This document shows positions 3,901 through 35,798 of a stretch of DNA of 37,300 nucleotides, in pieces (the stretch's first letter is position 1; every line of letters begins with the position of its first letter). The translations under genes were made by a program, and so were the position numbers. Source of the stretch: a virus. The stretch is from positions 1 to 37,300 of IMG/VR virus record IMGVR_UViG_3300048838_001135; one strand, 5' to 3'. The notes below the pieces were generated by a model. That model saw only the letters and a list, made by a program, of their open reading frames with translations, ran no database searches and was not told the origin of the DNA.

Positions 3901-3940
3901 ACTAAAAAAAGTGTGAAATCATTTGCAAGGAGAGATCACA

Positions 3941-5200
3941 ATGACACAACGCAATATTGCCGATAAGCAATTTTACTCATACGTCGAAACGAGTAAGGGA
4001 TCATCGCCATCATACGCCCAGCGTGTGACCTTTGGTGATGGTGGTTCGGTTGACGCATTCGCCAGATTGCGAACCAGTGTCCCTACGGTTGTTTTTGATT
4101 CTGCTGAATCGATCACTGCGCGGCAGGATCGCTGGAACAGTGCTCTTAGCGGTGGTGGTGCGATCACTTATGTCGCTGATAATGCCAGTCACCAGTTCAT
4201 TGTCGGTGCGACAGCAGGAGATTCTGCCCGTAGATCAAGCAAGCGCATGAACATTTACGTTCCAGGAACATCTATCCTTGTCCTGACAACGGGAGTTATG
4301 GGTGCTGGGGCTACTAATCAAAAAAGACGAATTGGATATTATAATACGAACAATGGGATCTTTTTCGAGCTCTCTGGAACGAACATGGGTCTTGTGAAGC
4401 GAACAAAAACAAGCGGCACAGCGGTTGATACCAGGATCGAACAAGCTGATTGGAATATCGACACGATGGATGGCAACGGACCATCTGAAATCGATCTTGA
4501 TTTTACCAATGCTCAGATATTCATGATGGACCTTGAATGGCTTGGCGTTGGCCGGGTGCGTTGTGGATTCGTCTTCGAAGGAAAAATCATCTACTGCCAT
4601 GAATTTGATCATGGCAATGAGCTAACAACAGTCTATATGTCCACAGCCAATTTGCCGGTTACGTATGAAGTGGTTAATACTGGCGCATCTGCTGCGAGCG
4701 ATGATTTCCGACAGATCTGTAGCAGCGTGATCATAGAGGGCGAACGCAGCAAATCGGCAGATCACAGGGCAGTTGATAATGGAATCATACCCGTTCCGAT
4801 CACCACCGTTGTTGCTCCTGTCATTTCATTGCGACTTCAGACAGCCTATGTCGGGGCAGCTGCAATAAAGCCAACGGAAATCAATTGTCTAAGTATTGGT
4901 TCGAAAGATGTTCTCTGGAAAATCCTGTACAATGCAACACTCGCTGGTGATAGCTGGACTACAAATAGCGGCATAGGTGCATTTGATGTTGCTGCAACCG
5001 CAGTTACTGGCGGCAAATGCCTCGCATCATGGTATGGCAGTTCCGACACGCGTGAAGCGTTGAAGGCATTCGCGGAACAAGATCAAATTGGTGGGTCAAT
5101 TGCTGGCGTTCCCGACACGTTAACCCTTGCCGCCGCCAACCTAACGGGTGTTACTTCTGGCAACGTAATTGGATCGATTGCCTACGATGAGATCTATTGA
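3941..5200 (+). CDS. Virion/tail-fibre-like structural protein
   Basis: The 419-aa product starts at ATG 3941 with AAGGAGAG upstream. It begins with a sequence like FGDGGSVDAFARLRTSVPTV followed by FDSAESI, a pattern (DAFGRLRxSxP...FDSK) I know from a widespread family of phage structural proteins annotated as tail-fibre or head-fibre related. The rest is beta-rich, with many Gly, Thr, Ala and Ser and no enzymatic motif. It lies apart from the main virion block. It may be a receptor-binding or capsid-surface protein. Its last 60 bases are overlapped on the other strand by the arm-binding-domain gene. Confidence 0.65.
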   Translation: MTQRNIADKQFYSYVETSKGSSPSYAQRVTFGDGGSVDAFARLRTSVPTVVFDSAESITARQDRWNSALSGGGAITYVADNASHQFIVGATAGDSARRSSKRMNIYVPGTSILVLTTGVMGAGATNQKRRIGYYNTNNGIFFELSGTNMGLVKRTKTSGTAVDTRIEQADWNIDTMDGNGPSEIDLDFTNAQIFMMDLEWLGVGRVRCGFVFEGKIIYCHEFDHGNELTTVYMSTANLPVTYEVVNTGASAASDDFRQICSSVIIEGERSKSADHRAVDNGIIPVPITTVVAPVISLRLQTAYVGAAAIKPTEINCLSIGSKDVLWKILYNATLAGDSWTTNSGIGAFDVAATAVTGGKCLASWYGSSDTREALKAFAEQDQIGGSIAGVPDTLTLAAANLTGVTSGNVIGSIAYDEIY

Positions 5201-7058: not shown

Positions 7059-7177
7059 TGGACACAATTTCTGAATTTCAAAGTTTTGCGGCAGGATATG
7101 TGTGGGGCATTCTGACAGTGTTCACTTGCATTATTGTCAGCTGGGTGATTGTTCGTTTTTCGGGACCTGGCAAGTGA
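7058..7177 (+). CDS. Tiny single-pass membrane protein
   Basis: A 39-aa frame starts at the ATG in the TAATG overlap with the previous stop, with GGGAG seven bases upstream. The product has a soluble N-terminus (MDTISEFQSF), one hydrophobic segment (AAGYVWGILTVFTCIIVSWV) and a short basic tail ending GPGK. Its 3' end overlaps the convergent AMP-ligase gene by 41 bases. It resembles the small membrane protein at 9876-9989 (both have F..G..[WY]GIL). A holin-like or membrane-anchoring role is possible but unproven. Confidence 0.6.
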   Translation: MDTISEFQSFAAGYVWGILTVFTCIIVSWVIVRFSGPGK

Positions 7178-8150
7178 ATTTTCGTCTTTTTTTCCCACTT
7201 TCAAAATATTCGATCTCATTAACGATTGAAATTCGAATTGGTCTAGCATAACGTGGAATACAGGAACCCCACGTTTGGTCTTTTAAAAACATGTCGCTTT
7301 GAACTCCATCAAAAAGCAAGATCTTGGCGCATACGATATTGCCCAAGATCTTATTTTTTTCACCGAAAACGACACAATCACGCACCATCGGACTTTTCAT
7401 GATCAGATTTTCAACTTCTGCTGGGTAGACTTTTTCACCACCAACCATGATGATTTCAGATTCACGGCCCATGATCCTAAGGGCACCGTCCTCACGTTCT
7501 ATGACGCGATCTTCTGTGTTGTAAAACCTGCCCACCATGGCATTTTCGTTATCAAGATCGCCTAAAATCCAGTCTTTTGCTTTCAGCCAAAGCTGACCAG
7601 CGACGATCAGATGTTCGTCCCTAAGTTTAAACCAAAGGGAATCATCGCTATCGCTTTCGATGTCCATAATTCCGGTCTCGGTGAGACCGTAGGTCTGCTT
7701 AAATTTAACAAAAGGTAGCTTTCGGACAAGAAAATCAAGCGTTTCCTGGGGCATCGGTTCGCTGCCGTAAGTGATCATGCGCACTGTTTTGAGAAGATCC
7801 GTAAAACCATCATCCCATGATATTTTAAGAAGTGTCAAAAAAGATGGGTTGACGGGCAACACCTCGACACCGTTGCAATACACGCAATCAAGAACATCAT
7901 CCAGCTGCCGCGATCTTGGAAAAAAAAGCTGTGATCCGCTCGTTATTGCTCGGATCACAGTGTTGATGCCCCCGATATGCGCCAAGTTGAGGAAACACAA
8001 CATTTTGGTAGGTCGAGAAGGATTATTGATATAATGATCCAGCATTTTCGTTAAATCTGCAAGTATCCGTTTTGGCTTACCAGTGCTGCCCGAAGTCTGA
8101 AAAACAATGCCAACATTCCCGTCAAGATCATCAAATAGCTGTTCACGCAT
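7137..8150 (-). CDS. Compact acyl-activating AMP-ligase (ANL family), N-terminally short
   Basis: The 337-aa product has the ANL adenylation motifs: the Ser/Thr/Gly loop TSGSTGKPK at residues 19-27, YGLTETG, the NTEDRV region equivalent to the usual TGD motif, GRESEIIMVGGEKVYPAEVE, and a C-terminal ESGKKRR that fits the catalytic-Lys motif. These enzymes activate a carboxylate with ATP and pass it to CoA or a carrier protein. Typical members have 150-200 more residues before the loop. Here the start at 8150 is fixed by the preceding SDR stop, so the short form is real. It is last in an operon with an acyl carrier protein, the likely acyl acceptor. Confidence 0.8.
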   Translation of the reverse strand: MREQLFDDLDGNVGIVFQTSGSTGKPKRILADLTKMLDHYINNPSRPTKMLCFLNLAHIGGINTVIRAITSGSQLFFPRSRQLDDVLDCVYCNGVEVLPVNPSFLTLLKISWDDGFTDLLKTVRMITYGSEPMPQETLDFLVRKLPFVKFKQTYGLTETGIMDIESDSDDSLWFKLRDEHLIVAGQLWLKAKDWILGDLDNENAMVGRFYNTEDRVIEREDGALRIMGRESEIIMVGGEKVYPAEVENLIMKSPMVRDCVVFGEKNKILGNIVCAKILLFDGVQSDMFLKDQTWGSCIPRYARPIRISIVNEIEYFESGKKRRKFTCQVPKNEQSPS

Positions 8151-8151
8151 T

Positions 8152-8841
8152 TTAAAAAACCCCGCCTAAGTATATTGTTTGACCAGTTATCATTTCAGAT
8201 CTATCAGAAATATAAAAATCACACACATTTAAAACATCAGCAAAGCTAGCTAAACGACTTATTGCTTGCCTGTCAAGAACGGCACCGATCTTCTCGGCAG
8301 GAACATTTTTTATCAGATCAGTGTGGATAGGATTGGGTCCAATGCAGTTGACTGTAATTCCGTAGTCCGCATATTCTCGCGCAAGAATGCGTGTTAGCGA
8401 TTCCACGGCCGCTTTGCTGCTTGCATAGGCAGATTCACCAGCAAGATCCATAGGAACCGCGCAAGTACTGAAATTGATGATCCTGCCCCATTTTTTAAAC
8501 ATCATTTTCTTAGCAGCCTCACGCGCCAGAACCATCGCGGAGATCGTGTTGACGACATATATTTTTTCTATAGTTTCTATTGGCGTTATCATGGAATGAT
8601 TCATGGATGCAACGCCAGCGCAATTTATCAAAATATCAAAATCGTATGATGATAAGTAAGCCGCAATATCGTGCGGCAGCGTAAGATCACCGTAAATATG
8701 ATAATAGCCAGCGTGTTCATAAATTTCTTCTGGCGGCAGCGTACGCGACATGCCGAGCACAAAAAAACCCTTTGACAGATAATGTGACGTTACAGCACAG
8801 CCAATGCCCCTGCTAGTTCCCGTTACGAGGACAGTTCTCAT
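8152..8841 (-). CDS. Short-chain dehydrogenase/reductase (FabG-like)
   Basis: This is a complete classical SDR of 229 aa: nucleotide-binding GTSRGIG (8-14), NCAG, and the catalytic Ser125, Tyr139 and Lys143 (FSTCAVP; SAYASSK). The C-terminal MITGQTIYLGG is typical of FabG-like reductases. Likely reaction: NAD(P)H-dependent reduction of a 3-ketoacyl-ACP or of a sugar ketone. It overlaps the upstream carrier-protein gene by 29 bases, which favours an acyl-ACP substrate. A sugar-acting SDR such as Campylobacter PtmA is the alternative. The ligase follows after one base. Confidence 0.85.
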   Translation of the reverse strand: MRTVLVTGTSRGIGCAVTSHYLSKGFFVLGMSRTLPPEEIYEHAGYYHIYGDLTLPHDIAAYLSSYDFDILINCAGVASMNHSMITPIETIEKIYVVNTISAMVLAREAAKKMMFKKWGRIINFSTCAVPMDLAGESAYASSKAAVESLTRILAREYADYGITVNCIGPNPIHTDLIKNVPAEKIGAVLDRQAISRLASFADVLNVCDFYISDRSEMITGQTIYLGGVF

Positions 8842-9112
8842 CGATTAACCCCCAGATATAGTTTGCAAGACGGTCTAAATTTACGAATGGGCTGTTTTCT
8901 TGTGACAACGCACGATCATCGACGATTATAATTTCGCACGGGAAAACATCGTTAACACGTTTTTCAACCGTCACCAAGAACCGCACAAAATCGATAGAAT
9001 CGAAAAGACCTTTGCTGCCGAACAGCCTGGTTTTTTCGTTGTCAAAATCTTTTTTATGGGTCTGTTCAATCACGGTCTCGCGCAAGATTTGTAAAATCTC
9101 TTGTTTCATCAT
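8813..9112 (-). CDS. Acyl carrier protein
   Basis: The 99-aa product (start MMKQEILQIL) has the carrier-protein helix I and then GLFDSIDFVRFLVTVE, with Ser39 in the DSI motif as the 4'-phosphopantetheine site. A helical end (NLDRLANYIW) completes the fold. The ATG at 9112 overlaps the stop of the GNAT gene (ATGA), with AAGGA upstream. It needs a host phosphopantetheinyl transferase, as none is seen here. With ligase and SDR in the same operon it likely carries an acyl chain that is reduced and then handed to an acyltransferase. Confidence 0.82.
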   Translation of the reverse strand: MMKQEILQILRETVIEQTHKKDFDNEKTRLFGSKGLFDSIDFVRFLVTVEKRVNDVFPCEIIIVDDRALSQENSPFVNLDRLANYIWGLIDENCPRNGN

Positions 9113-9675
9113 TTGATCCTTCCGTCCCAATTACAAATTGGAAAATCGCGTTGAAAACTCGAAAACTCTTTTTTATTAAACCACATTGCTTTATCAAGCC
9201 ACATGTAAATAAGTTTTTTGTCAATCCCATTTTTTATTATATATCTATCAAAATATGGTGCTCGCAAATAACCGTGATGATCATGTAGGGCTATCACTCC
9301 GGCGTTCGATTCCATGACTTCTGCCTGGATCTTTTCTATCGGCAAATTTGTAAAAACCCAATTGTAAAAGTATGGCGGGATCATGCCGCCAATGCCAACA
9401 TGCTCGTCGTTTCCGATATAAAAACCCCATCCTGTGAGATTGTGATCTGGCGAATAGTCGCTTAGATTTATAAGACCGATTGGAATACCGCGAAATTCGA
9501 TGATCCAGTGATAGTAGTGTGTTTTTTGATTTGACCTGTCGAACCATTCTTTGTGTTTTGCATAGTCGTCGCTCGGTAGATCGCTGATCATGTGGCGCGA
9601 TACACGATGTTTTGTGCGCCATTTCCAGATGCGACCACAATCTTCAGGGATCGTTTCGCGAAAGGTGAAAGCCAT
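9109..9675 (-). CDS. PseH-like GNAT N-acyltransferase
   Basis: The 188-aa product has the GNAT layout of the RimJ/PseH branch: FRETIPEDCGRIWKWRTKHR, then IPIGLINLSD, the acyl-CoA loop region EHVGIGGMIPPYFYNW, and LPIEKIQAEVMESNAGVIAL with HHGYL. The last segment closely follows PseH, which acylates the 4-amino group of a 4-amino-4,6-dideoxy sugar nucleotide. As first gene of the operon with ACP, SDR and AMP-ligase, it may use an acyl-ACP donor. A TATAAT lies 13 bases upstream of the start (9693-9688, minus strand) but has no -35. The ribosome site (GGGA) is weak. Confidence 0.78.
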   Translation of the reverse strand: MAFTFRETIPEDCGRIWKWRTKHRVSRHMISDLPSDDYAKHKEWFDRSNQKTHYYHWIIEFRGIPIGLINLSDYSPDHNLTGWGFYIGNDEHVGIGGMIPPYFYNWVFTNLPIEKIQAEVMESNAGVIALHDHHGYLRAPYFDRYIIKNGIDKKLIYMWLDKAMWFNKKEFSSFQRDFPICNWDGRIK

Positions 9676-10195: not shown

Positions 10196-10386
10196 TGGTA
10201 GTACAGCTAGAAATAACACATAAAAAAAAGACATTTTTAAAAGTCAATGTATATACAATAGTAGGAAAAGAACGATTATTTGATTGCGTTATGTCAGGAA
10301 CTATTCCTCAGATTTTATCAGAATTAGAAAAAAGATATGATGAACCAGTAATAATACAAAGATCAATTTTCTCCGGTTGGTATTAA
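10192..10386 (+). CDS. Hypothetical 64-aa protein
   Basis: The start overlaps the previous stop (ATGA, 10192-10195). The product mixes strands (VVQLEITHKK, LKVNVYTIVG) with a helix (IPQILSELEKRYD). Its coding sequence is more AT-rich than its neighbours. It converges with the caspase-like gene, overlapping by four bases. No family recognised. Confidence 0.5.
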   Translation: MMVVQLEITHKKKTFLKVNVYTIVGKERLFDCVMSGTIPQILSELEKRYDEPVIIQRSIFSGWY

Positions 10387-10934
10387 CCCCTAGGCACCAC
10401 TTTCTGAAGTGGTGTCGATGATTTCATGTAAAATTTCCCGTTGACCATTTTCTGACTTGATCGCGTTGTAAAACCAAACACAGGTCTTTTAGTCGCGTCC
10501 GAAATCCACTGGCCGATACACTCATCTTGCCTTTTGCCGTTCTGTCCGATCGTCTGACAGCCCCAAAGCTTGATCTCAGCGTGTTCAGCGAGCACGATCT
10601 GTCGCCAATCAGTGTCTTTCGTTATAAAGCGGCAATTGTCCGGTTTTTCTTCAGGATAACGGAAAAACACGTAAAGCTTATTAGGTCCACTATGGCCGGA
10701 GTAAATGAGCTCGTCACAGGGGCAGTTATCAGCCATTTCGTTAAACATTTGCTTAAGAGGGTTAACCATGTCTTTGTATCTTCTTGCATCGAAATGGATC
10801 ACATCTTCGTAGGGATGTTCTTTTTCATAAGTCAAAATATTATTTAAAAATGTGTCGGAATGTTTCCAACGCTGATTTTTGCCGTCATAAATGGTCTCAA
10901 GACCTACAATTGCTAAAACTCTCTTGATAGGCAT
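10383..10934 (-). CDS. Caspase/CHAT-like predicted cysteine protease
   Basis: The 183-aa product starts at ATG 10934 (GGAG 8 bases upstream). It begins with a strand KRVLAIVGLE. It then has ELIYSGHSGPNK with His81 and AEIKLWGCQTIG with Cys126, followed by GQWISDATKRPVFGFTTR. Strand-plus-'SGH' and strand-plus-'xxC' followed by a helix and 'xPVxGxT' is the layout of caspase-hemoglobinase fold proteins (peptidase C14, CHAT, DUF4347). If the His-Cys dyad is real this is a small protease. It is a single gene, divergent from the ParB-like gene. Alternatively the domain is non-catalytic. Pattern-based, no close homologue recalled. Confidence 0.5.
   Translation of the reverse strand: MPIKRVLAIVGLETIYDGKNQRWKHSDTFLNNILTYEKEHPYEDVIHFDARRYKDMVNPLKQMFNEMADNCPCDELIYSGHSGPNKLYVFFRYPEEKPDNCRFITKDTDWRQIVLAEHAEIKLWGCQTIGQNGKRQDECIGQWISDATKRPVFGFTTRSSQKMVNGKFYMKSSTPLQKVVPRG
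10395..10414. terminator. Hairpin at the convergent gene ends
   Basis: CACCACTT (10395-10402) pairs perfectly with AAGTGGTG (10407-10414) over a 4-base loop, at the junction of the convergent genes ending at 10386 and 10383. There is no T run on either side, so it may be a weak or protein-assisted bidirectional terminator. Confidence 0.4.
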
Positions 10935-10987
10935 ACGGTTATCTCCTATTCTTTGCATATAGTTATTTTATCAGCAGGAGACCCGCA

Positions 10988-12113: not shown

Positions 12114-12312
12114 GAATGAGGAAAACCCGTTTGAAATAGCCTCGAAAACCTACATCTATCTGCATGAATTAAATCCAGATCTCGCAAAAAACTGGCTCGA
12201 CAGATATCGCGGTTGTCGCACATCGAAGGACGTGTTAAAGCTGTCTGGTGAGTATGTCTCTTTTATTATAGATTCTGGCTACAGGAAATTTTACGATGAA
12301 AATTATTGCTGA
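12082..12312 (+). CDS. Hypothetical 76-aa protein
   Basis: The start is ATG 12082, with GAGGGAG about 9 bases upstream; an in-frame ATG at 12064 lies before this ribosome site. The product is helical, with NPFEIASKTYIYLHELNPDL and KNWLDRYRGCRTSKDVLKL, and ends FYDENYC. It overlaps both neighbours (32 and 17 bases), so it is part of the tight packaging operon. Not recognised. Confidence 0.55.
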   Translation: MKAKLHQIQLKNEENPFEIASKTYIYLHELNPDLAKNWLDRYRGCRTSKDVLKLSGEYVSFIIDSGYRKFYDENYC

Positions 12313-13255
12313 CATTGGTTCAAACTGGACAAGAATTGGTGATCTGCTTCTCGCGGCAGACATGGCAAAATGCTGTGACTGCGATGCCTTTAAGATCCAG
12401 TATTTTTCAGATGCTGATCTTTATGCTCCTGGTGCTGTAAGGCGCAACGACAGGCTTAAGAATACAATCGATCTTGATCTGCTTTGGCGACACTGTAATA
12501 GACTTGGCATTGAATTCATGGCATCGGTTTTCAATCCGGACGACATTGAAGACCTGAACCCATACGTTGAAAGATATAAGGTTGCAAGCGGTGAGGCAAA
12601 GCACTACCGTCTTTTAGAGGAGATCGCAAAAACAGCAAAACCAGTTATCGTGAGCACAGGATGTTACGATGATTTCAACTATCTTGCTGAAATATTTGAA
12701 CCAGATCTTGTGACGCTGCTTTATTGCGTAGCGGAATATCCTGCGAGACTGACTGATATTCGGGTTCTTTCGGACTTGATAAACAATTCACCGTTTAAGG
12801 TTGGGTTCAGTGATCACAGTTATGATCTTGTGGCAACAGCAGAAATTGCGCGAGAATATGGCTGCACAGTGTTCGAACGGCATTTCAATCCATCATATAT
12901 GACATCTCTTGAATCTCCAGATTCAGGTCCTCATGCATTAAACCCATCAGATATGGCCTATTATTGCCGCTATCTAAAACAAAAAGGATCTATTTTTCAG
13001 CCAGATAAAAACACGTATTTTAGAAGACGACCAATCGCCACTGAAAAAATAAGATGCGGTGAAAAGCTGGTTTATGGTCAAAATTGGGATTTTCTGCGGC
13101 CACAAAAAAAAGAACATGACGGCGATATTAACTGGGAATTTCACAATAAAGAACTATTTGCGCAACGCGAAATAGCTTTTGGCGAAAGTTTAAGTTGGAG
13201 TAATTGTGGAATTTGTACCGCACAGTCAGAAACAGAATGCAGTACTACTATCTGA
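12296..13255 (+). CDS. NeuB-family nonulosonic acid synthase
   Basis: The 319-aa product has the NeuB/PseI/LegI signature: ADIGSN (5-10), DAFKIQYF, YKVASGEAKH, KPVIVSTGCY, LLYCVAEYPA, GFSDHS with His174, and FERHFN with His196; these two histidines match the metal ligands of NeuB. Residues about 244-300 (RRRPIATEKIRCGEKLVYGQ to LRPQ) fit the C-terminal antifreeze-like (SAF) domain. The enzyme condenses phosphoenolpyruvate with a six-carbon amino sugar to give a nine-carbon acidic sugar. Length is near the family norm (about 340). It sits between the small terminase region and TerL and overlaps TerL by 50 bases. Which sugar (sialic, pseudaminic or legionaminic type) cannot be told. Confidence 0.88.
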   Translation: MKIIADIGSNWTRIGDLLLAADMAKCCDCDAFKIQYFSDADLYAPGAVRRNDRLKNTIDLDLLWRHCNRLGIEFMASVFNPDDIEDLNPYVERYKVASGEAKHYRLLEEIAKTAKPVIVSTGCYDDFNYLAEIFEPDLVTLLYCVAEYPARLTDIRVLSDLINNSPFKVGFSDHSYDLVATAEIAREYGCTVFERHFNPSYMTSLESPDSGPHALNPSDMAYYCRYLKQKGSIFQPDKNTYFRRRPIATEKIRCGEKLVYGQNWDFLRPQKKEHDGDINWEFHNKELFAQREIAFGESLSWSNCGICTAQSETECSTTI

Positions 13256-17994: not shown

Positions 17995-18912
17995 ATGGCA
18001 GTATCAGTTGACCAGCTAACGGCATTGACCCATCGTTACATCCAGCCAAAGCTGCACGACAACATTTTCGATACCAATCCACTTTTGAACAAGATTCTCA
18101 AAAGCGGACAGTACAAATCACTTTCTGGCGGGACCACGATTGATCTACCGCTTAACTACGCGCAAGGCGCTGGCGGTTGGTTCGCTGGGGCTGATTCCCT
18201 CTTGACGAACGATGTAGAGAACATCTCGGTCGCTCGCTACAATTGGGCATCTGTCTATTCACCCATCGCTATTTCAGAAGAAGACATTCTGAAAAATGGC
18301 GGTGATGCTGGCGTTATCAAGCTTTTGGCTGCAAAGAGCCAAATTGCTGAAAAGACGATCAAGGATTTGGTTGGCACAGGTCTTTATTCCGATGGCACCA
18401 ACACAAAGTCTATCGTTGGTCTTAGAGATCTTGTCGCTGTCGATCAGACAGTTGGCGGTATCTCTCAGTCAACAAACTCATGGTGGCAAGCGCAAGTGGA
18501 CAGCACCACGACAACGCTGACCATTTCAGCGGTAAATACGCTGTATGAACTGGCATCGATCGACAGTAAACCGAATTTGATCGTGAGCTCTCGCGCGCTT
18601 TACAATTCGTTTTACAATCTTCTGCAACCGCAGCAAAGATTCTATGACGACACGACCGCAAAGGCCGGTTTCCAGAATCTAATGCTTAATGGCGCAGTGT
18701 GGATGAGCGATTCTCATTGTCCCGCTTATCATGCCTTTGGCTTGACACTTGAGGACATTCACTTGTTCTATCATCCAGAAATGAATTTCTCGACCGATCC
18801 GTTCCAGAGCCCAATCAACCAACGCGTCCGGACAAGCCGCGTCACTTGGATGGGATGCCTTGCATCGTCGAACAACCGTAAACATTTCAAGCTAAGCGCA
18901 ATAACCGCTTAA
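17995..18912 (+). CDS. Major capsid protein
   Basis: The 305-aa product is HK97-fold-like by layout. The N-terminus (DQLTALTHRYIQPKLHDNIF) and DTNPLLNKILKSGQYKSLSG precede the beta-rich part with SVARYNWASVYSPIAISEED, where many coat proteins have similar Tyr-Asn-Trp segments. DLVGTGLYSDG and a C-terminal region (RTSRVTWMGCLASSNNRKHF) complete it. It has the strongest purine-rich ribosome site of the block (AAAGGAAAGGAAAG). Place after scaffold and before a decoration candidate confirms the call. Confidence 0.87.
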   Translation: MAVSVDQLTALTHRYIQPKLHDNIFDTNPLLNKILKSGQYKSLSGGTTIDLPLNYAQGAGGWFAGADSLLTNDVENISVARYNWASVYSPIAISEEDILKNGGDAGVIKLLAAKSQIAEKTIKDLVGTGLYSDGTNTKSIVGLRDLVAVDQTVGGISQSTNSWWQAQVDSTTTTLTISAVNTLYELASIDSKPNLIVSSRALYNSFYNLLQPQQRFYDDTTAKAGFQNLMLNGAVWMSDSHCPAYHAFGLTLEDIHLFYHPEMNFSTDPFQSPINQRVRTSRVTWMGCLASSNNRKHFKLSAITA

Positions 18913-18934: not shown

Positions 18935-19408
18935 ATGAGTTTTAATTTCCCACCAAAGATTCTTTTGACTAGCCTCAGTGCCGTTGTTAGTGCTCGCAGT
19001 GCTAACAGCCCAGAAGTTGGCGACAGAATGTGGTACGAAGGAAAAGAGTACATTTACGTATACAATGAAGGAACAACCCAAGCATCTCCTGGCTACGGTC
19101 TAACACCCGTTGCCGCGAGTGCAACATCGCCTTACACTTGCACGGTGTCGTCTAACAGCGGTTCCCCGCTTGTAGGTGTTGTCTACAATGCTACGCTGAC
19201 CACTGCGACTTACGGTTGGGTTGTGAGCAAAGGCACTGTTCCAGTACTACCTGGTGCATCGTATGCCGTTGGAACCCCGTTGACGCTTGATCTTAACGGA
19301 GTTTTCGTCACTGCAATCGTTACGGCAATTCATTGCCATCAAGCGATCGCAACCGTAACCGGTGTGACTGGCACTGCTACCAGTGCTCACGTTTACGGCA
19401 ATCTTTAA
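18935..19408 (+). CDS. Capsid decoration or head-surface protein candidate
   Basis: The 157-aa product is rich in Ser, Thr, Ala and Gly, with short strands separated by turns (SPEVGDRMWYEGKEYIYVYN; VTAIHCHQAIATVTGVTG). The position after the coat gene is where decoration proteins usually lie, and the all-beta character fits. It is followed directly by the Maf-like glycosyltransferase, so its exposed Ser/Thr residues are natural candidates for sugar attachment. That last point is inference. Confidence 0.55.
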   Translation: MSFNFPPKILLTSLSAVVSARSANSPEVGDRMWYEGKEYIYVYNEGTTQASPGYGLTPVAASATSPYTCTVSSNSGSPLVGVVYNATLTTATYGWVVSKGTVPVLPGASYAVGTPLTLDLNGVFVTAIVTAIHCHQAIATVTGVTGTATSAHVYGNL

Positions 19409-19438: not shown

Positions 19439-20473
19439 ATGAGGACATCCAACATCATTCTGGAATTGCAGCCCTATACGAACCAGATCGCTTTCACGCC
19501 AAAGCAGATGTATGCTAATGCGTGTTCAAGCGATGCAGAAACGCTGAATCGTTGGCTCGACACTTGGTTGTCAAATATCTCTGAAAATCAAAAAAGATTT
19601 GGTCCTTTCAAGGAGAATTCTGTGGGTTCTCTTTGGAAATCCAAAGAGGGATTGCCCTGCATCATAGCCGGTGCAGGGCCGTCACTCACTAACAACATTC
19701 ACCTTCTGAAAGACAGGCCATCGTGGTTACCGTTAGTATCGTGTCTCCATTCTTTCCATGCCATGGAGGATGCCGATGCGCGAGTTGATTATTATGTCAC
19801 ACTTGATGCTGGTACAGACATTACGACAGAGGAAGTTACAGAAGGCGGAAAAAAACCAGAAATCGAGTACTGGGAAAAAACAAAAGAAAAAACCTTGATC
19901 GCATTTATCGGAACAAGCCCAAAGCTTATTGAAAAATGGCAGGGCAAAATCCTTTGGTATAATGCTCCTGTTCCTGGCGGCAAGTACAAAGACGAATGCG
20001 ATAAGATCGAACCGTTTAATTGCTGGGTAAGCAACGGTGGTCATGTTCTTGGTGCATGTTTTTACATCGCAAAGGCATGGCTAGGATGTCCGACAACGCT
20101 GTTTATCGGTGCTGATTTTGCGTTTTCAAATCGCGACAAGGTTCGGTTCCATGCATGGGACAGTAAATATGATGCGAACATCGGGCAGACAATCCGATGG
20201 GTTGATATTTGGGGCAATAGCGTTAAAACGTGGCCGAGCTATTGGAATTTTGCCCAGTGGTGGGCATATGTCAGTAAAACTTTGCCAGGGACCTATGTTA
20301 ATTGCTCAGAGGACGGTATTTTAGGCGCATTTCGCGAAGGAAATCTCGATTCAATTCAGCAAAAATCTCTGGCCGAAATGCTCGAAATTTATAAACTTCA
20401 TGACAGATTTGCGCATCAGGCTACAAAACCAGATGAGTTTTTGGATCCTGATAGCAAGTTTATTCTAATCTAA
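19439..20473 (+). CDS. DUF115/Maf-type (6-hydroxymethylpterin kinase MptE-like) glycosyltransferase
   Basis: The 344-aa product has the DUF115 signature: CIIAGAGPSLTNNI (74-87) near the start, YYVTLDAG (118-125), SNGGHVLGACFYIAKAWLGC (198-217) and FIGADFAFSN (222-231). Members include the flagellin Maf/PseE transferases of Campylobacter and relatives, which attach nonulosonic acids to Ser/Thr; other members are MptE-like pterin kinases. Here the Maf reading is favoured because the genome also has NeuB- and CMP-sugar-synthetase-like enzymes. It lies among head/tail genes, suggesting a virion protein as acceptor. The ribosome site is far (GAGG, about 16 bases) and AT-rich, so expression may be low. 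Confidence 0.75.
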   Translation: MRTSNIILELQPYTNQIAFTPKQMYANACSSDAETLNRWLDTWLSNISENQKRFGPFKENSVGSLWKSKEGLPCIIAGAGPSLTNNIHLLKDRPSWLPLVSCLHSFHAMEDADARVDYYVTLDAGTDITTEEVTEGGKKPEIEYWEKTKEKTLIAFIGTSPKLIEKWQGKILWYNAPVPGGKYKDECDKIEPFNCWVSNGGHVLGACFYIAKAWLGCPTTLFIGADFAFSNRDKVRFHAWDSKYDANIGQTIRWVDIWGNSVKTWPSYWNFAQWWAYVSKTLPGTYVNCSEDGILGAFREGNLDSIQQKSLAEMLEIYKLHDRFAHQATKPDEFLDPDSKFILI

Positions 20474-20492: not shown

Positions 20493-20759
20493 ATGGCATT
20501 TACACTTACCCAGACGCAACAAACAGTGTTCGGAAATCAACGTGTGTTGCAGGGCGAAGTCACGGCAGATAATACTAGCGGTTATGTCGATAGCGGTTTT
20601 GATCACATTTATCATGCCCAAGTCAGTGCAAAAAGCCAGACAACGGGCTGTAGAATTCTACTTAACTCGCTGCCATCTGGAACTGCAACGGCAGGTTATC
20701 TGGCGTTTTCAAGTACGACTAGCGGTGATGTTTTTTACGTAACAATTTACGGACGGTGA
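20493..20759 (+). CDS. Small beta-rich virion protein
   Basis: The 88-aa product starts at ATG 20493 after GGGGAGA. It is Thr/Gly/Ser-rich and all-beta in appearance (VLQGEVTADNTSGYVDSGFD; GYLAFSSTTSGDVFYVTIYG). It lies in the head-completion region between the Maf-like gene and adaptor. Pattern and size fit a minor head, spike or decoration protein. Family unknown. Confidence 0.6.
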   Translation: MAFTLTQTQQTVFGNQRVLQGEVTADNTSGYVDSGFDHIYHAQVSAKSQTTGCRILLNSLPSGTATAGYLAFSSTTSGDVFYVTIYGR

Positions 20760-20765
20760 TTTGAC

Positions 20766-21119
20766 ATGACAATTGGGCCAGTAAAAGCTTTTGCTGTCAC
20801 AGCAGCATCCGGATCGACTTACACAAGCGCGGTTGATCTTGGTGGTGCTTATGGCAAGTATCTTTTCATCATCCCGACAATGACTTCTGGATCTGATCTT
20901 GGTCTTTTGGTTTCTGATCTTGAAGACGGGACTTTTAGGCGACTTTATGCAATGGCGCAAGCGACACCAACATTCACGGTCGCAGCCATGAATTTTGATT
21001 CAGCTGTCACCAATTGCGCAATTCCGATCGATCTTGCTGCGCAGTTCATCAAAGTCGAAATCAAGTCGGCAATGACAGCCTCGACAGCAGAATTTAAGTT
21101 TATTTGTTGTTCAAATTAA
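20766..21119 (+). CDS. Small beta-rich virion protein
   Basis: The 117-aa product begins 6 bases after the previous gene. It has PVKAFAVTAASGSTYTSAVD, YLFIIPTMTSGSDLGLLVSD and FIKVEIKSAMTASTAEFKF, alternating strands with Ser/Thr/Ala turns. It looks like a jelly-roll-type surface protein related in style to the 88-aa neighbour. Probably a minor capsid or head-decoration component. Not assigned to a family. Confidence 0.6.
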   Translation: MTIGPVKAFAVTAASGSTYTSAVDLGGAYGKYLFIIPTMTSGSDLGLLVSDLEDGTFRRLYAMAQATPTFTVAAMNFDSAVTNCAIPIDLAAQFIKVEIKSAMTASTAEFKFICCSN

Positions 21120-21137: not shown

Positions 21138-21539
21138 ATGCCAATGGTTAAAGTGTGGAATCGCAATAGCGTAGTGCATAAAGAGATGTTTAAAGGCGAG
21201 GAGATCGTTATCCAGCCTGGGAAATACATAACAATGGATTTCAACGAGGCTAATGATTTTCGCGGTCAGTTCTTCACGCCAAAATTCAACAAAGGCGGTG
21301 CTCAGACGGTCGATTCCATGAAATACATCGAAATCGATAAATGCGACTATAAATCGGCACTGGATGAACTCAATAGTCGCGGTGAAGATCGTGCTAAAAA
21401 AGCATACGTATGCATGAAATGCAATAAGGAATTCACTTCCAAGCGGGCACTGCTAACTCATGTAAAAAACACTCATAGCGATGAGCTAGCAGATGATGAA
21501 ACCCGCGAGGAACTGGAAGCGGAATTAGAAGGGGCATAA
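21138..21539 (+). CDS. Virion-region protein with C2H2 zinc finger
   Basis: The 133-aa product has a beta N-terminal part (MVKVWNRNSVVHKEMFKGEE; IVIQPGKYITMDFNEAND), then a textbook C2H2 finger YVCMKCNKEFTSKRALLTHV, continuing to KNTH: Cys-x2-Cys-x12-His-x4-His, about residues 94-113. An acidic tail follows. The N-terminal half resembles small head or tail structural proteins. A classical C2H2 finger in a phage structural block is unusual; it may bind DNA, RNA or another virion protein. Confidence 0.7.
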   Translation: MPMVKVWNRNSVVHKEMFKGEEIVIQPGKYITMDFNEANDFRGQFFTPKFNKGGAQTVDSMKYIEIDKCDYKSALDELNSRGEDRAKKAYVCMKCNKEFTSKRALLTHVKNTHSDELADDETREELEAELEGA

Positions 21540-21542
21540 ACA

Positions 21543-21992
21543 ATGAAAATTGATCTTCAGGGACGTTGGCATATTAAGCTGTATCGTGGCGAAGATCTGA
21601 TCGAGGAACGTGCTGGCCGCAATATCATTACGACAGATGGCAAGTCGTTCTTGGCTGCATTTTTGTATAGTGCTGCCGTTAGCGGTGGGACGTGGCCTAT
21701 GCGTTATATTGCGATCGGCACAGGAACTGGCGCAGAGGCTGCTGCCGATGCTGCATTGGGCACTGAAGCTGCAAGGGCTACCACTGGAACCGTATGCAAC
21801 ATCGCTGGCGGAATCTATCGCGTGATAGCAACATTTGCGAGCGGAGAAGGAACCGGAGCGATCACAGAATACGGTCTTTTTGACACGTCTAGTTCCTCTG
21901 CTGGCACTATGTTTTCGCGTGATCTGGAATCAGCGATCAACAAAGGAGCCAACGACACGTTAACTGTTATAACTGATGTTACGGTCGCTTAA
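21543..21992 (+). CDS. Phage structural protein (collar/fibre-like beta protein)
   Basis: The 149-aa product contains NIITTDGKSFLAAFLYSAAV, YIAIGTGTGAEAAADAALGT and ITEYGLFDTSSSSAGTMFSR. The 'AIGTGTxxxxxxDxALGTE' pattern followed by 'ITEYGLFD' is common in phage tail-fibre and head-tail structural proteins. It begins three bases after the zinc-finger gene. Likely part of the virion surface or tail. Confidence 0.65.
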   Translation: MKIDLQGRWHIKLYRGEDLIEERAGRNIITTDGKSFLAAFLYSAAVSGGTWPMRYIAIGTGTGAEAAADAALGTEAARATTGTVCNIAGGIYRVIATFASGEGTGAITEYGLFDTSSSSAGTMFSRDLESAINKGANDTLTVITDVTVA

Positions 21993-22004: not shown

Positions 22005-22487
22005 ATGACCGACTTTACGAAAACCATAACGGTTGGCCTTGGCCTAGTTGGCCTTGGAAATGCGGTCTATTGGGGTTCCGGTATGGTCTGGGGCTCATCA
22101 AATTGGGGCGAACAAAGCATTGCTCTGATCGTTTATCATCAGATCATATCGACAATGTCTGTTTCTACGACTATTGGCAAGGATATTGCGCATCAATTCG
22201 CAACGACAATGCCAATCAATACCAGTCGCTCGTTCGATTTCCAATTTCAAATCAATGACAGCCTTTCGCTTGATTCATCGAAAAGCAGTGACTTTGTAAA
22301 AAGTTATGGCAACGATTTAAATCTAGTGTCGGCACCGAACGAAATTAACGTACTCAATGGTCCATATTCTAGGATATGTGCTGGTGGGTCAGATAATTGG
22401 TTGTCGTGTGTGTCGAACGCTTACGCATTGTCTTCGACATCCTCGACTTGGACTACCGCAGCTGCGGCAAGTACTACTTGGAGTTAA
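22005..22487 (+). CDS. Hypothetical virion protein, Gly/Trp then Ser/Thr-rich
   Basis: The 160-aa product begins with a Gly/Trp-rich stretch (TVGLGLVGLGNAVYWGSGMV, then WGSSNWGEQ) and continues as a Ser/Thr-rich beta protein ending in a run of Ser, Thr, Ala and Trp. The start at 22005 has GGGA upstream, 12 bases after the previous gene. The very Ser/Thr-rich tail makes it another possible glycan acceptor. Not recognised. Confidence 0.55.
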   Translation: MTDFTKTITVGLGLVGLGNAVYWGSGMVWGSSNWGEQSIALIVYHQIISTMSVSTTIGKDIAHQFATTMPINTSRSFDFQFQINDSLSLDSSKSSDFVKSYGNDLNLVSAPNEINVLNGPYSRICAGGSDNWLSCVSNAYALSSTSSTWTTAAAASTTWS

Positions 22488-31624: not shown

Positions 31625-32524
31625 ATGAAATCTTGCATTATAACTGGCGGCACTGGAACGCTTGGCCGCGAACTAATCAGGCAGATCACAGTTGGAAAGT
31701 ATTTTGATCCTATAGTGGTTTTTTCGCGAGACGAGGCAAAGCATATTGAACTAGAACGTGAATATGATAACGTCCGTACGTTTTTGGGTGATGTTGTCCG
31801 CAGTGAAGACATAGGATCTTGCATAAGAAAATACCAGCCAGATACCGTTTTCCACTGTGCTGCGCTTAAGCATGTCGATCGTGGCGAGGTTCAGACAACA
31901 CAGTATATTAATGTCAATCTTAATGGCACGATCAACGTCACAAATGCATGTTCTAATTTTCGCGTTAAGAATATGGTTTTCTTTTCGACTGATAAAGCAG
32001 TGCTGCCAATAAACGCCTACGGTATGACAAAGGCGTTGGCTGAAAAATACATACAAAGCAAGTGGTCAGATGATGAAAAGAGCACTAATTTTGCTATTTA
32101 TCGCTGGGGCAATATTCTTGGTTCTAACGGATCTGTGCTTAAGCAGTTTGTGAAAGACATTATCGATAAGAAAAGAATCAAAATCACTCATCAAGATATG
32201 ACCCGCTTTTGGCTCACGATAAGCGAGGCTGTATTCTATGTGCTTAATAGCTATCTTGAACGAACGATCCAGCCAAGGATCTGCCCCACGATCAAGGCGG
32301 CAACGCTGATCGATCTTGCCTATGCTGTGGCATCTTGCCTTAGCATGGAGTACGATCTTGATTTCAAGATCACAGGGATTCGGCCTGGCGAGAAGATCCA
32401 TGAACATCTGAAATCTGATCATGATTTTTGCATCAGATCTGATAATGCGCCAAGATACAAAGCTGATGAACTAGAAGCAAAAATTAAATCAACGGTATTG
32501 GAGCTCGCTGGATGGCTAAAATAG
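31625..32524 (+). CDS. PseB-like UDP-sugar 4,6-dehydratase
   Basis: The 299-aa product has a Rossmann loop TGGTGTLG (7-14), FHCAALKHVD (76-85), the catalytic STDKAVLPINAYGMTK with Thr122-Asp123-Lys124 and Tyr132-x3-Lys136, RWGNILGSNGS, and DMTRFWLT. This matches the soluble FlaA1/PseB family that converts UDP-GlcNAc to a 4-keto-6-deoxy (often 5-epimerised) sugar, the first step of pseudaminic-type and related pathways. Length is slightly below PseB (about 330). Start ATG 31625 after AAGGA. All catalytic residues are present. Confidence 0.82.
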   Translation: MKSCIITGGTGTLGRELIRQITVGKYFDPIVVFSRDEAKHIELEREYDNVRTFLGDVVRSEDIGSCIRKYQPDTVFHCAALKHVDRGEVQTTQYINVNLNGTINVTNACSNFRVKNMVFFSTDKAVLPINAYGMTKALAEKYIQSKWSDDEKSTNFAIYRWGNILGSNGSVLKQFVKDIIDKKRIKITHQDMTRFWLTISEAVFYVLNSYLERTIQPRICPTIKAATLIDLAYAVASCLSMEYDLDFKITGIRPGEKIHEHLKSDHDFCIRSDNAPRYKADELEAKIKSTVLELAGWLK

Positions 32525-33171
32525 GAATCATTGGTGCTCGGGGAAATATGGGAACACGCTACGGTCTTATCACCAAGGCTCTTGGCCATGAAGTGATCGA
32601 AGTTGATCTAGGATCGTCTAACAGACCACTTTTGCACGATTGCGATGGGATCATCATAGCAACGCCAACGGCAACACATTTCAATCTGATCATGGAATGG
32701 GGTCATAAGCCAATACTTTGCGAAAAGCCTATCAGCAAGCATGTTGATGAGATCGATGCATTGTTCTCACAAAAAGAATGTAAAAAACTCAATGTTCGTA
32801 TGATCAATCAGTACGAATATTATATTTTAAAGCAAAAAGAATTTGAGAAGATTGTTAAAGACGTTCCTTATCGTGGTTTACAGCCTCAGACGTTTTTCAA
32901 CTATTACAAGCATGGAAACGATGGGCTGATCTGGGATTGCATAAACATCATTGGTCTAAGTGGAGGGTCAGTTCAGATACATGGAACTGGTTTTATTTGG
33001 GAATGCATGATCAACAACATCCAACTTTGCATCAGCGAGATGGATCGTGCTTATATCTGGAACATCAGAAGTTGGCTCAATAAATTTGACGAGAATCATG
33101 AGTATATTGTTAAAGCACATAAAAAATGCCATGAAATGGAGCAAAAACTAAAAAATGACTACAAGAGTTGA
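32512..33171 (+). CDS. Short Gfo/Idh/MocA-type oxidoreductase
   Basis: The 219-aa product has an N-terminal NAD(P)-binding GIIGARGNMG (5-14), GIIIATPTATHFNLI and the family's CEKPIS motif (Lys of EKP being catalytic). The C-terminal part (residues 120-219) is shorter than the usual 200-residue beta-sheet domain. Such enzymes oxidise or reduce sugar hydroxyls, often before a transamination. It lies between the dehydratase and the cytidylyltransferase and overlaps both. Substrate unknown. It could be a trimmed version that is still active, or one with changed function. Confidence 0.7.
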   Translation: MAKIGIIGARGNMGTRYGLITKALGHEVIEVDLGSSNRPLLHDCDGIIIATPTATHFNLIMEWGHKPILCEKPISKHVDEIDALFSQKECKKLNVRMINQYEYYILKQKEFEKIVKDVPYRGLQPQTFFNYYKHGNDGLIWDCINIIGLSGGSVQIHGTGFIWECMINNIQLCISEMDRAYIWNIRSWLNKFDENHEYIVKAHKKCHEMEQKLKNDYKS

Positions 33172-33874
33172 AATATGCATTCAGGCACGTAACAGTTCAA
33201 GCAGAATGCCAGGAAAAAGCATTAAGCCCCTAGGCGATGGCACGATCATCAGCTATATGCTGCAAGCGATCAAAAACGCAATAAACCCACTTCGCGGTGA
33301 TGCTACGGTTTTTAACTTTGATTTTGGTGTGAATTTGCTGGTTCCAGAAGACGAGTTTTCTGACTGGTCGTCGCGTCACAAAGATAATTTTGACATGATC
33401 TTTGGCGGTGATCTTAACAACGTATTCTCTCGGTTTTGGACAATTTACAATTTGAAAAAACCAAAATACGTTATGCGTCTTACTGCCGATTGCCCGTTGA
33501 TTCCGCAGCCAGCTATCAACCGATCGATCTATCAATGCACCAAGCATCGGCTTGATTATCTGTGCAATAGCTGGGAACATATACGCACAACACCGGACGG
33601 CCACGATGTTGAAATCATGTCGGCAGATGCAATGGAATGGCTGTTTAAGCACAATTCAGATCCAGAGGATTTCGAACACGTTACGATCGCTTTAAGAAAG
33701 CATGTTCCATCTCATCTCAGGATCGGAGTGTTACTGACAAAAGAGGACAATTCTCACATAAAATGCTCGATTGACACGCCACAGGACTTTGATGCTGTCA
33801 ACTATAGGCTTAAATCGAGTAGTGAAAAACGAAAAAAAGCAACGGAAATGGGGTTTGGAATCTATGACTATTGA
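33155..33874 (+). CDS. SpsF/CMP-sugar synthetase-like cytidylyltransferase
   Basis: The 239-aa product starts with the nucleotide-binding IQARNSSSRMPGKSIKPLGD (9-28), the family motif QAR-x5-R-x-P-x-K, and has DLNNVFSRFW, VMRLTADCPLIPQPAI and TPDGHDVEIMSADAMEWL. This is the SpsF branch of the CMP-Kdo/CMP-sialate synthetase superfamily, which joins CMP to an acidic sugar to make the transferase donor. It pairs naturally with the NeuB-like synthase. The ribosome site is weak (GGAG at 14 bases). It overlaps both neighbours. Confidence 0.78.
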   Translation: MTTRVEICIQARNSSSRMPGKSIKPLGDGTIISYMLQAIKNAINPLRGDATVFNFDFGVNLLVPEDEFSDWSSRHKDNFDMIFGGDLNNVFSRFWTIYNLKKPKYVMRLTADCPLIPQPAINRSIYQCTKHRLDYLCNSWEHIRTTPDGHDVEIMSADAMEWLFKHNSDPEDFEHVTIALRKHVPSHLRIGVLLTKEDNSHIKCSIDTPQDFDAVNYRLKSSSEKRKKATEMGFGIYDY

Positions 33875-35090
33875 TAACATTATGCTTGATCGTGCAAATC
33901 GGTGCATAGCCCAAGGCTATCTCACAAATTCTAAAAATCCAGAGACAGACATTTTTGGCGTATTCCCTACGCATTTTAAAAAAGGCAAGGGCTGCTGGAT
34001 CTATGACACTGAAAACGAAAGGTACATGGATTTAGTGTGCGCTCTTGGCTGCAATCTTTTTGGCTATGGAAATTTGCTGATAGAAAATCAAGTCACTGCT
34101 GATTTTGGCCTATGCCTTGGCGGTAGCACCGTGCATGAAGTCTATGCTGCCGAAGCGGTTAAGAATGTTTTTCCTTGGATTGAAAAGATCAAATTTGTAA
34201 ATTCTGGCACCGAAGCTTGCATGGCAGCGGTTAGGATCGCCAGATCTTACACTGGACGACCGTATATTCTAAGCCAGGGCTATCACGGTTGGTCCGATGA
34301 ATTTGTATCGCTTACACCGCCAGCCAACGGGATCAATCGCTTTTCTTCTATCTTTGAACTGCCGCAGGATTTTGATGATATCCCAGATGAGATCATTTCG
34401 AACACTGCGGCCATCATCATTGAACCTGTCATTTTGGACGATAGCAGAGCTCGCATTGAATGGCTCAAAAAGCTTCGGACGCTTTGCACAGAAAAAGGCA
34501 TTGTGCTGATTTTCGATGAAATTGTTACGGGTATCCGTTATCCAGATCATGCCGTAGCGAAGCACTGGAACATCACACCAGATCTGTTCTTACTTGGGAA
34601 AGCTATCGGCAATGGTCATAAGATTGCCCTCGTAGCTGGCCCTAGCGCGCTCATGGACGGCAAATATTTTGTATCAGGCAGTTATTTTGGCCAAATTACA
34701 TCGCTGCAAGCTGTGCGGGCAGTGATTGAACTAATAACAAAAAAGGCCAATCAATATAATATCAACGTTCTTAACGATAAAACAAAATATTTTAGAGATT
34801 CTTTTAACTCGCTTGGTCCTGACATTGTTCGCCTTGAAGGCTGGGGGAATCGATGCAATTTCGTTGGTAGCGATTACAATCTGGCTCTTTTTCGGCAAGA
34901 AATGATCAAGGCACGTTATTTCACTAAGACAACATTCCTTTCAAATTTTGATATTTGTGATCATTTTTCAGATATTCTCTATACGGCAAAAATGATATTA
35001 AGTCGCATTGCTCTTGGTGAGATCAAACTTGAAGGCAAGATGCCTGTTAAACCGTTTTCACAAGTTGTAAGGGAGAAAGCCAATGGATAA
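33864..35090 (+). CDS. Class III PLP aminotransferase (glutamate-1-semialdehyde mutase-like)
   Basis: The 408-aa product (ATG 33864) has the PLP-phosphate motif NSGTEACMAAVRIAR (113-127), GYHGW, IFDEIVTGIR and the Schiff-base Lys246 in GKAIGNG. It belongs to the acetylornithine/glutamate-1-semialdehyde branch, not the DegT branch used by PseC. It likely adds an amino group to a keto intermediate made by the neighbouring oxidoreductase or dehydratase. It lies in the sugar cassette, so it is probably a sugar-amine enzyme. The frame is open upstream to 33771, but that is inside the previous gene. Confidence 0.78.
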   Translation: MTIDNIMLDRANRCIAQGYLTNSKNPETDIFGVFPTHFKKGKGCWIYDTENERYMDLVCALGCNLFGYGNLLIENQVTADFGLCLGGSTVHEVYAAEAVKNVFPWIEKIKFVNSGTEACMAAVRIARSYTGRPYILSQGYHGWSDEFVSLTPPANGINRFSSIFELPQDFDDIPDEIISNTAAIIIEPVILDDSRARIEWLKKLRTLCTEKGIVLIFDEIVTGIRYPDHAVAKHWNITPDLFLLGKAIGNGHKIALVAGPSALMDGKYFVSGSYFGQITSLQAVRAVIELITKKANQYNINVLNDKTKYFRDSFNSLGPDIVRLEGWGNRCNFVGSDYNLALFRQEMIKARYFTKTTFLSNFDICDHFSDILYTAKMILSRIALGEIKLEGKMPVKPFSQVVREKANG

Positions 35091-35271
35091 AGTAAAATTG
35101 AAAGAACTGATGTTGAAGAAAAAAGAATTGGATGATCGTGCCGCAGCACTGCAAAAAGAACAGCTGGAATGGAACAAAAAGATTGTTCAACTAACGGGTC
35201 AACAAAAAATGAGCTTTGAAGATCTTCTTTTGAAAGTGATCGACGATGATCAAGCGGGGGTTCAGAGTTGA
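35083..35271 (+). CDS. Small coiled-coil protein
   Basis: The 62-aa product (ATG 35083, GGGAG upstream, overlapping the aminotransferase stop) is a charged helix (VKLKELMLKKKELDDRAAAL; QKEQLEWNKKIVQL) with a short acidic end. The next gene, a GNAT, starts in a 4-base overlap. It may be a partner or stabiliser of the acyltransferase. Not recognised. Confidence 0.5.
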   Translation: MDKVKLKELMLKKKELDDRAAALQKEQLEWNKKIVQLTGQQKMSFEDLLLKVIDDDQAGVQS

Positions 35272-35798
35272 TAGATTTTGGATATGGTGTTCGGCTCACA
35301 GCTGTAGAGCAAAAATCGTTAGAATCAATAAGGTATTATCGTAATTTGCCGGAACTAAATCGTTGGTTTCGGCAAAACACTGATCTTAGCCAATGGGAAA
35401 ATCTCAACTATTGGCAAACTGTATGGTCTGGTCATCAGCATAAGTTTTTTCAAGTGTATCCTAACGGATCCGACGACTATATTGGTGTTGCGGGTCTTTG
35501 CTATATCGATCGGCAGAATTCTCGCGCAGAATTTTCGCTTTGGATCATGCCAGAACAGCAGCATCATGGTTTTGGAACTGCTGCATTGAAGACGCTTTTT
35601 GACCATGGATTTGACGATTTAAATTTGCATCTTATTTATGGCGAGACGTTTGACGGCAATCCTGCGCTGGATCTTTTTGTAAAAAAGCTTGGAATGCGGT
35701 ATGATGGTTGTCGTCAAGAGTTTTATTTTAAACGCGGCAAATACATTGACGCACATGTCATTTCGCTAACGGGGGCTCAGAGACAATGGAACAGATGA
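35268..35798 (+). CDS. GNAT acetyltransferase (RimJ/PseH-like)
   Basis: The 176-aa product starts with TTG at 35268, overlapping the previous stop (TTGA) with a G-rich ribosome site. It has SIRYYRNLPELNRWFRQNTD, YIGVAGLCYIDRQNSRAEFS, the acyl-CoA loop region QQHHGFGTAALKTLFDHGF and LHLIYGETFDGNPALDLFVK, ending KLGMRYDG. This is the RimJ/RimL/PseH type that acylates amino groups. As the last gene of the sugar cassette it is the second GNAT of the genome. It may N-acylate a second amino position of the sugar. Confidence 0.75.
   Translation: MIDFGYGVRLTAVEQKSLESIRYYRNLPELNRWFRQNTDLSQWENLNYWQTVWSGHQHKFFQVYPNGSDDYIGVAGLCYIDRQNSRAEFSLWIMPEQQHHGFGTAALKTLFDHGFDDLNLHLIYGETFDGNPALDLFVKKLGMRYDGCRQEFYFKRGKYIDAHVISLTGAQRQWNR

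Follow-up and report, generated by a model that had tools for sequence, protein, structure and literature searches.

Conserved transferase and sugar genes suggest that particles of an uncultured phage lineage bear a phage-made acidic sugar coat

In a widespread, uncultured group of small, tailed phages, a conserved head-block gene for a relative of the enzyme that attaches sialic-acid-like sugars to bacterial flagella, together with genes for making such a sugar, suggests that the particles receive an acidic sugar coat from the phage itself. The features of the window (the whole 37,300-nucleotide stretch of viral DNA analysed) are given in Table 1. We propose that a stand-alone Maf-type glycosyltransferase would take a CMP-activated nonulosonic (sialic-acid-like) sugar and, within the infected cell's cytoplasm, attach it to a protein at Ser/Thr. 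The donor would be made largely by phage enzymes (a PseB-like dehydratase, a class III aminotransferase, a PseH-like acetyltransferase, a NeuB-type synthase and a cytidylyltransferase), and a missing step, such as PseG, would come from the host. The acceptor would most likely be a virion protein, the cement protein or the 88-aa neighbour being the ones to consider first, and mature particles would then bear an acidic sugar coat. We hold the whole explanation, from Maf-type transferase through a largely phage-made nonulosonate donor to a virion acceptor, to be reasonably probable. In our judgement, a nonulosonate transferase with a largely phage-made donor is quite likely. A virion protein as acceptor is favoured with moderate confidence, given gene position, same-strand order and Ser/Thr-rich neighbours. 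The broadest form, a lineage-wide core step of virion maturation that joins nearly self-sufficient CMP-nonulosonate synthesis to O-glycosylation of the cement or a neighbouring virion protein by a one-domain Maf, we consider an even call.

Table 1. Features of the window bearing on the transferase, its head-block neighbours and the sugar genes.
Feature	Coordinates	Strand	Support
Optional sugar-tailoring set of AMP-ligase, SDR and possible acyl carrier protein, membership uncertain	7137..9130	-	
Second PseH-like GNAT acetyltransferase, near relatives only	9109..9675	-	TIGR03585 89.0 bits, cut-off 93.1
NeuB-family nonulosonate synthase, directly before terminase	12296..13255	+	PF03102 109 bits; TIGR03569 93 bits; TIGR03586 78 bits
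Major capsid protein (MCP)	17995..18912	+	phrog_9953, 169.8 bits
Capsid cement/decoration protein, candidate acceptor	18935..19408	+	PF09956 matches in relatives; fold matches
Maf-type (PF01973/DUF115) glycosyltransferase, 344 aa, ATG start	19439..20473	+	PF01973 match and fold match
88-aa Ser/Thr-rich head-block protein, always beside transferase, candidate acceptor	20493..20759	+	
117-aa Ser/Thr-rich head-block protein, absent from some relatives	20766..21119	+	
133-aa zinc-finger-like head-block protein	21138..21539	+	
149-aa Ser/Thr-rich head-block protein	21543..21992	+	Weak tail-fibre match
160-aa Ser/Thr-rich head-block protein, absent from some relatives	22005..22487	+	
PseB-like UDP-GlcNAc 4,6-dehydratase	31625..32524	+	PF02719 243 bits; PseB 197.6 bits, cut-off 407.75
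Short Gfo/Idh/MocA-like oxidoreductase	32512..33171	+	PF01408
CMP-nonulosonate cytidylyltransferase-like protein	33155..33874	+	PF02348 40 bits; N-terminal nucleotide motif
Class III (hemL-like) aminotransferase	33864..35090	+	PF00202 119.6 bits; PLP lysine present
PseH-like GNAT acetyltransferase	35268..35798	+	PseH 47.7 bits, cut-off 93.1

The original prediction had placed a DUF115 protein with the motifs GAGPSL, YYVTLDAG and GADFAFS between the cement gene and the small head genes. All three motifs were found in the open reading frame, and its product matched PF01973 (MptE-like/DUF115/Maf_flag10) above the cut-off (72.9 bits, E = 3.4e-20, cut-off 34.6), as did 47/47 aligned relatives. Among solved folds, the predicted model of the transferase (pLDDT 80.8, pTM 0.84) came nearest to 5MU5, a Maf glycosyltransferase of flagellin (Z 19.0 over 246 residues), followed by the archaeal pterin kinase MptE, 8sd5 (Z 14.9 over 196 residues). 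Other matches were SteA (Z 9.8) and Cst-II and ST8SiaIII (Z 9.6). Foldseek ranked Maf ahead of MptE, in the same order as the Z scores (Maf match E = 3.2e-9), and a profile of the transferase family searched against solved sequences gave 5MU5 as the best match (E = 4e-4; 8sd5, E = 0.46). A phmmer search of the PDB with the single transferase protein returned no match. These data place the modelled fold nearer to Maf than to the pterin kinase, and the pterin kinase best match that had been named in advance as evidence against the prediction did not appear.

The likeness to Maf is confined to one domain. The transferase aligned only to residues 238-517 of the 632-residue 5MU5 chain; it lacks Maf's N-terminal domain and the full C-terminal one, and with them the three-domain architecture of 600 aa or more. 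Because the central Maf_flag10 domain alone is present and the rest of Maf is missing, we call the protein "Maf-type" and not "Maf". The earlier description of the protein as Maf-like thus stands for its fold and closest family but extends to the central domain only. Residues invariant across the 47 transferase sequences include G78, G80, P81, H104, D123, G125, E132, H238, W240, N288 and N302. By comparison with sialyltransferases, H238, just past the GADF motif, is a putative base.

The strongest evidence comes from sugar-biosynthesis genes in other parts of the window, none of them mentioned in the original prediction. As in Maf systems, nonulosonate genes share the genome with the transferase: NeuB, PseB-like, cytidylyltransferase, aminotransferase and PseH-like genes were all found. 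Those from the PseB-like to the PseH-like gene are located behind the S74 tail gene. The aminotransferase was taken to start at the in-frame ATG at 33864 of an open reading frame that itself opens at 33771. The two metal-ligand His motifs of NeuB were kept in 20/20 copies. Of 21 aminotransferases, 20 had the PLP lysine, and only that of contig G026 did not. Equivalog scores fell below their cut-offs for PseB (197.6 against 407.75), PseH (89.0 and 47.7 against 93.1), PseI (78.3 against 340.25) and NeuB (93.3 against 399.65). No PseG-type hydrolase was recognised among the window proteins scanned (small open reading frames were scanned in part), nor was a DegT-type PseC aminotransferase found among them, the aminotransferase present being of class III. 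With no PseG recognised and all equivalog scores below cut-off, the sugar may be pseudaminic acid, legionaminic acid or another. A separate minus-strand set at 7137-9675 encodes a half-length AMP-ligase (337 aa), a FabG-like SDR, a possible acyl carrier protein and a PseH-like acetyltransferase. This set was present only in the window and its near relatives L004 and G002, and it perhaps gives the sugar an unusual acyl decoration.

The transferase gene lies downstream of the portal and major capsid genes, within the structural gene block, as would be expected for phage virion glycosylation. The claimed one-strand run with gaps of at most 30 bases was borne out: gaps were 22 bases from MCP to 18935, 30 from there to 19439, 19 to 20493, 6 to 20766 and 18 to 21138, all on the same strand. 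The decoration candidate at 18935 also proved well chosen. Phage_cement_2 (PF09956) was matched by 4/50 relatives of its product, and the AlphaFold model (pLDDT 78.7) had capsid decoration or head-fibre proteins as its top solved matches (Z 9.0-12.8), namely those of HFTV1, T1, FCWL1, Sf11, XM1, Pam3, TW1 and phi29. The small downstream proteins had been described as Ser/Thr-rich. Their family means were 20.9-24.1% Ser/Thr, compared to about 11% for the enzymes, and the description fails only for the 21138 product, at just 7.8%. Nearly all relatives nonetheless keep this zinc-finger-like protein (21138-21539) of low Ser/Thr content among their head genes. Neither promoter nor terminator scans rose above chance. 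Far upstream, positions 3923-5200 of the window encode a virion structural protein (phrog_1645, 304 bits); in many relatives, unlike in the window, this gene stands directly upstream of NeuB or TerL.

We then looked at conservation across the lineage. A search of IMG/VR by capsid protein found 22 contigs; PF01973 was present in 18 of them and NeuB in 14, most of the others being short fragments. Searching with an alignment of the Maf-type proteins gave 151 stretches with relatives, of which 80 were kept, all with at least 45% identity to the window. Synteny was counted over 102 entries (81 distinct IMG/VR contigs, 21 present twice). The upstream neighbour of the transferase was the cement gene in 101/102 entries and a contig edge in the remaining one, and the arrangement is therefore not due to chance. 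Downstream, the 88-aa gene followed in 97/102 entries, a contig edge in 4 and another head gene in 1. This constant position, with the cement gene on one side and genes for small virion proteins on the other, makes a virion protein the most likely acceptor.

The sugar genes are conserved along with it. Among 19 near-complete contigs (>33 kb), the aminotransferase was found in 19/19, the PseB, cytidylyltransferase and acetyltransferase genes in 18/19 each, NeuB in 17/19 and Gfo in 16/19. The order common to all, apart from circular permutation and a single case of a relocated PseB, was NeuB-TerL-MCP-cement-MAF-88aa-S74-PseB-Gfo-CTP-AT3-GNAT, all on one strand. Exact terminal repeats of 114-127 bases were present in 8 of the 19, including the window, and are compatible with complete genomes, more weakly so for the window, whose ends are a simple repeat. 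There, positions 1-114 and 37187-37300 form an exact 114-base terminal repeat of GCCATA/GCCAGA short units, and the contig is probably a circularised genome broken inside a tandem repeat.

Two contigs depart from the pattern. In G026 (loci L130 and L131) the transferase is intact and NeuB, PseB, Gfo, the cytidylyltransferase and the acetyltransferase are missing. Its aminotransferase, downstream of the S74 gene at the sugar-cassette site, is shortened, with the PLP lysine changed to alanine. G026 thus retains an intact transferase next to a sugar cassette in decay. In G016, NeuB and Gfo are missing. These losses indicate that a phage-made donor is not always needed. Both exceptions fit a sugar or steps supplied by the host, and they would also be compatible with a transferase that acts non-enzymatically.

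We observed that the transferase is under strong purifying selection, like the capsid protein (median omega 0.063, compared to 0.058 for MCP and 0.043 for cement). Covariation was assessed in 18 contigs having all genes, with 12 virion-block genes compared. Transferase distances correlated with mean sugar-gene distances (r = 0.78). With the mean of the other virion genes removed, the partial correlation was 0.60 (P = 0.0002, partial Mantel P values being indicative only), the highest of the 12 virion-block genes, compared to -0.37 for MCP. Single-gene partial correlations of the transferase were 0.46-0.56 with NeuB, AT3, GNAT and CTP, and weaker with PseB (0.22, P = 0.07). NeuB is 6 kb upstream of the transferase and the cassette 11 kb downstream of it, too far for close linkage by itself to account for this covariation. 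With single virion proteins, the transferase gave weak signals only (S74, TerL and the 21138 protein), which name no acceptor. The predicted virion glycosylation gains from the Maf-like fold, from the nonulosonate pathway conserved with the gene and from the place of the gene in the head-block core, but the divergence data single out no neighbouring virion protein.

Other explanations were weighed against the same data. Nonulosonates are common surface sugars of bacteria, and the cassette enzymes could feed host transferases too. In the main alternative, the transferase and pathway would modify the host, at flagellin or a surface structure, altering receptors or blocking superinfection; known Maf enzymes do act on flagellin (PMC11339370). 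We consider this unlikely, because the gene is locked between the cement and small virion genes in every contig reaching that far, its same-strand order with packaging and head genes fits late expression, too late for modifying the host, and no flagellar or lipopolysaccharide gene was recognised nearby. The invariant head-block place could also reflect a non-enzymatic head-assembly factor with a retained fold, the sugar genes serving another purpose, and the intact gene in G026, where most of the pathway is lost, would agree with this. Such a factor would hardly be expected to keep so many unvarying polar residues and glycines of the kind that marks a nucleotide-sugar site (G78, G80, P81, H104, D123, E132 and H238), and its divergence would not be expected to follow the sugar genes instead of the capsid gene; we regard it as improbable.

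Two further readings concern the substrate. Phage glycosyltransferases often modify DNA (PMC12619734), and the sugar could be put on phage DNA, as in phages with glycosylated bases. This is very improbable, as no base hydroxymethylation gene was recognised among the proteins scanned and Maf-type enzymes are protein transferases. An MptE-type pterin diphosphokinase is suggested by the Pfam family name and by the second-best fold, but it is barely credible given the better Maf match by both fold and profile, the tight link to nonulosonate genes and a window in which no pterin or folate gene was recognised.

Maf enzymes are reported to place nonulosonic acids on Ser/Thr, and their Maf_flag10 domain resembles the sialyltransferase Cst-II (PMC11339370). 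The phage protein shares with Maf (5MU5 of Magnetospirillum; C. botulinum Maf) the PF01973 domain, the best fold and profile match and the company of nonulosonate genes. It differs in being phage-encoded and about half as long, and its neighbours are capsid and cement genes, not flagellin or other flagellar genes. With the archaeal 6-hydroxymethylpterin diphosphokinase MptE it has the Pfam family and fold core in common, but it scores lower against MptE in structure and sequence and has no pterin context. The GT42/GT29 sialyltransferases (Cst-I, Cst-II and ST8SiaIII) appear to have a common fold (Z about 9 to 9.6, far below Maf) and, by eye, a common G-x-GPS nucleotide-site motif, but they are remote in sequence and act on glycans, not protein side chains. 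To our knowledge, mycobacteriophage glycosylation involves no nonulosonate pathway or Maf-type enzyme. The function proposed here is nevertheless that of the mycobacteriophages, in which a phage glycosyltransferase acts on capsid or tail subunits; glycans have been demonstrated there (Freeman et al. 2023, as cited in PMC12619734), whereas here they are predicted.

In BFVD, uncultured Caudovirales have MptE-like proteins (e.g., A0A0F7L3H2 and A0A6J5PG89) with the same fold (Foldseek E = 3.4e-11 and 9.8e-11) at about 16% identity to the transferase, listed there with no assigned function or context. The PF01973 domain was thus already known in phages, and the conserved system appears new as far as the literature searched shows: our searches found no account of a phage nonulosonate/Maf virion system. 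A tblastn search of INPHARED with two phage Maf-type proteins gave no match and so yielded no cultured member. By capsid protein, at about 30% identity, the closest cultured phages were Stenotrophomonas BUCT555, Myxococcus Mx8 and Bradyrhizobium ppBjS10J-1; the transferase and small-gene set were not detectable in the stretches of these examined. In a SAR324 bacterium (L153 537-2208), a NeuB gene is followed immediately by a short DUF115 gene and, further on, by a weak match to a cytidylyltransferase. What appears to be a cellular nonulosonate cluster thus includes a stand-alone DUF115, which supports a role of such proteins in nonulosonate transfer or metabolism generally and says nothing about acceptors. 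A search of this SAR324 genome with the Maf profile was negative.

If the proposal is true, phage particles from many environments would bear negatively charged, sialic-acid-like sugars from their own genes, with possible effects on particle stability, adsorption, immune recognition and binding to mucus or surfaces. Nonulosonate protein glycosylation would then occur outside the flagellum and cell envelope, carried by the virus itself, and Maf-type transfer would work with the central domain alone on a non-flagellin scaffold, which would be useful for protein glyco-engineering. A role would also be gained for viral metagenome genes that mostly carry a pterin kinase or miscellaneous sugar metabolism annotation, and virion glycosylation in an uncultured lineage would become directly testable by co-expression.

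The window contained no tRNA, and PADLOC gave no match in it. A 191-aa protein at 10383-10958 on the minus strand carries YSGHSG and LWGCQT motifs and by eye recalls caspase-like folds, without a family match. Searching genome contigs with the aminotransferase returned a single distant SAR324 match. Shine-Dalgarno-like sequences were observed ahead of many window genes, and these argue against a Bacteroidota host, which had been hinted at by one lipoprotein-like signal.
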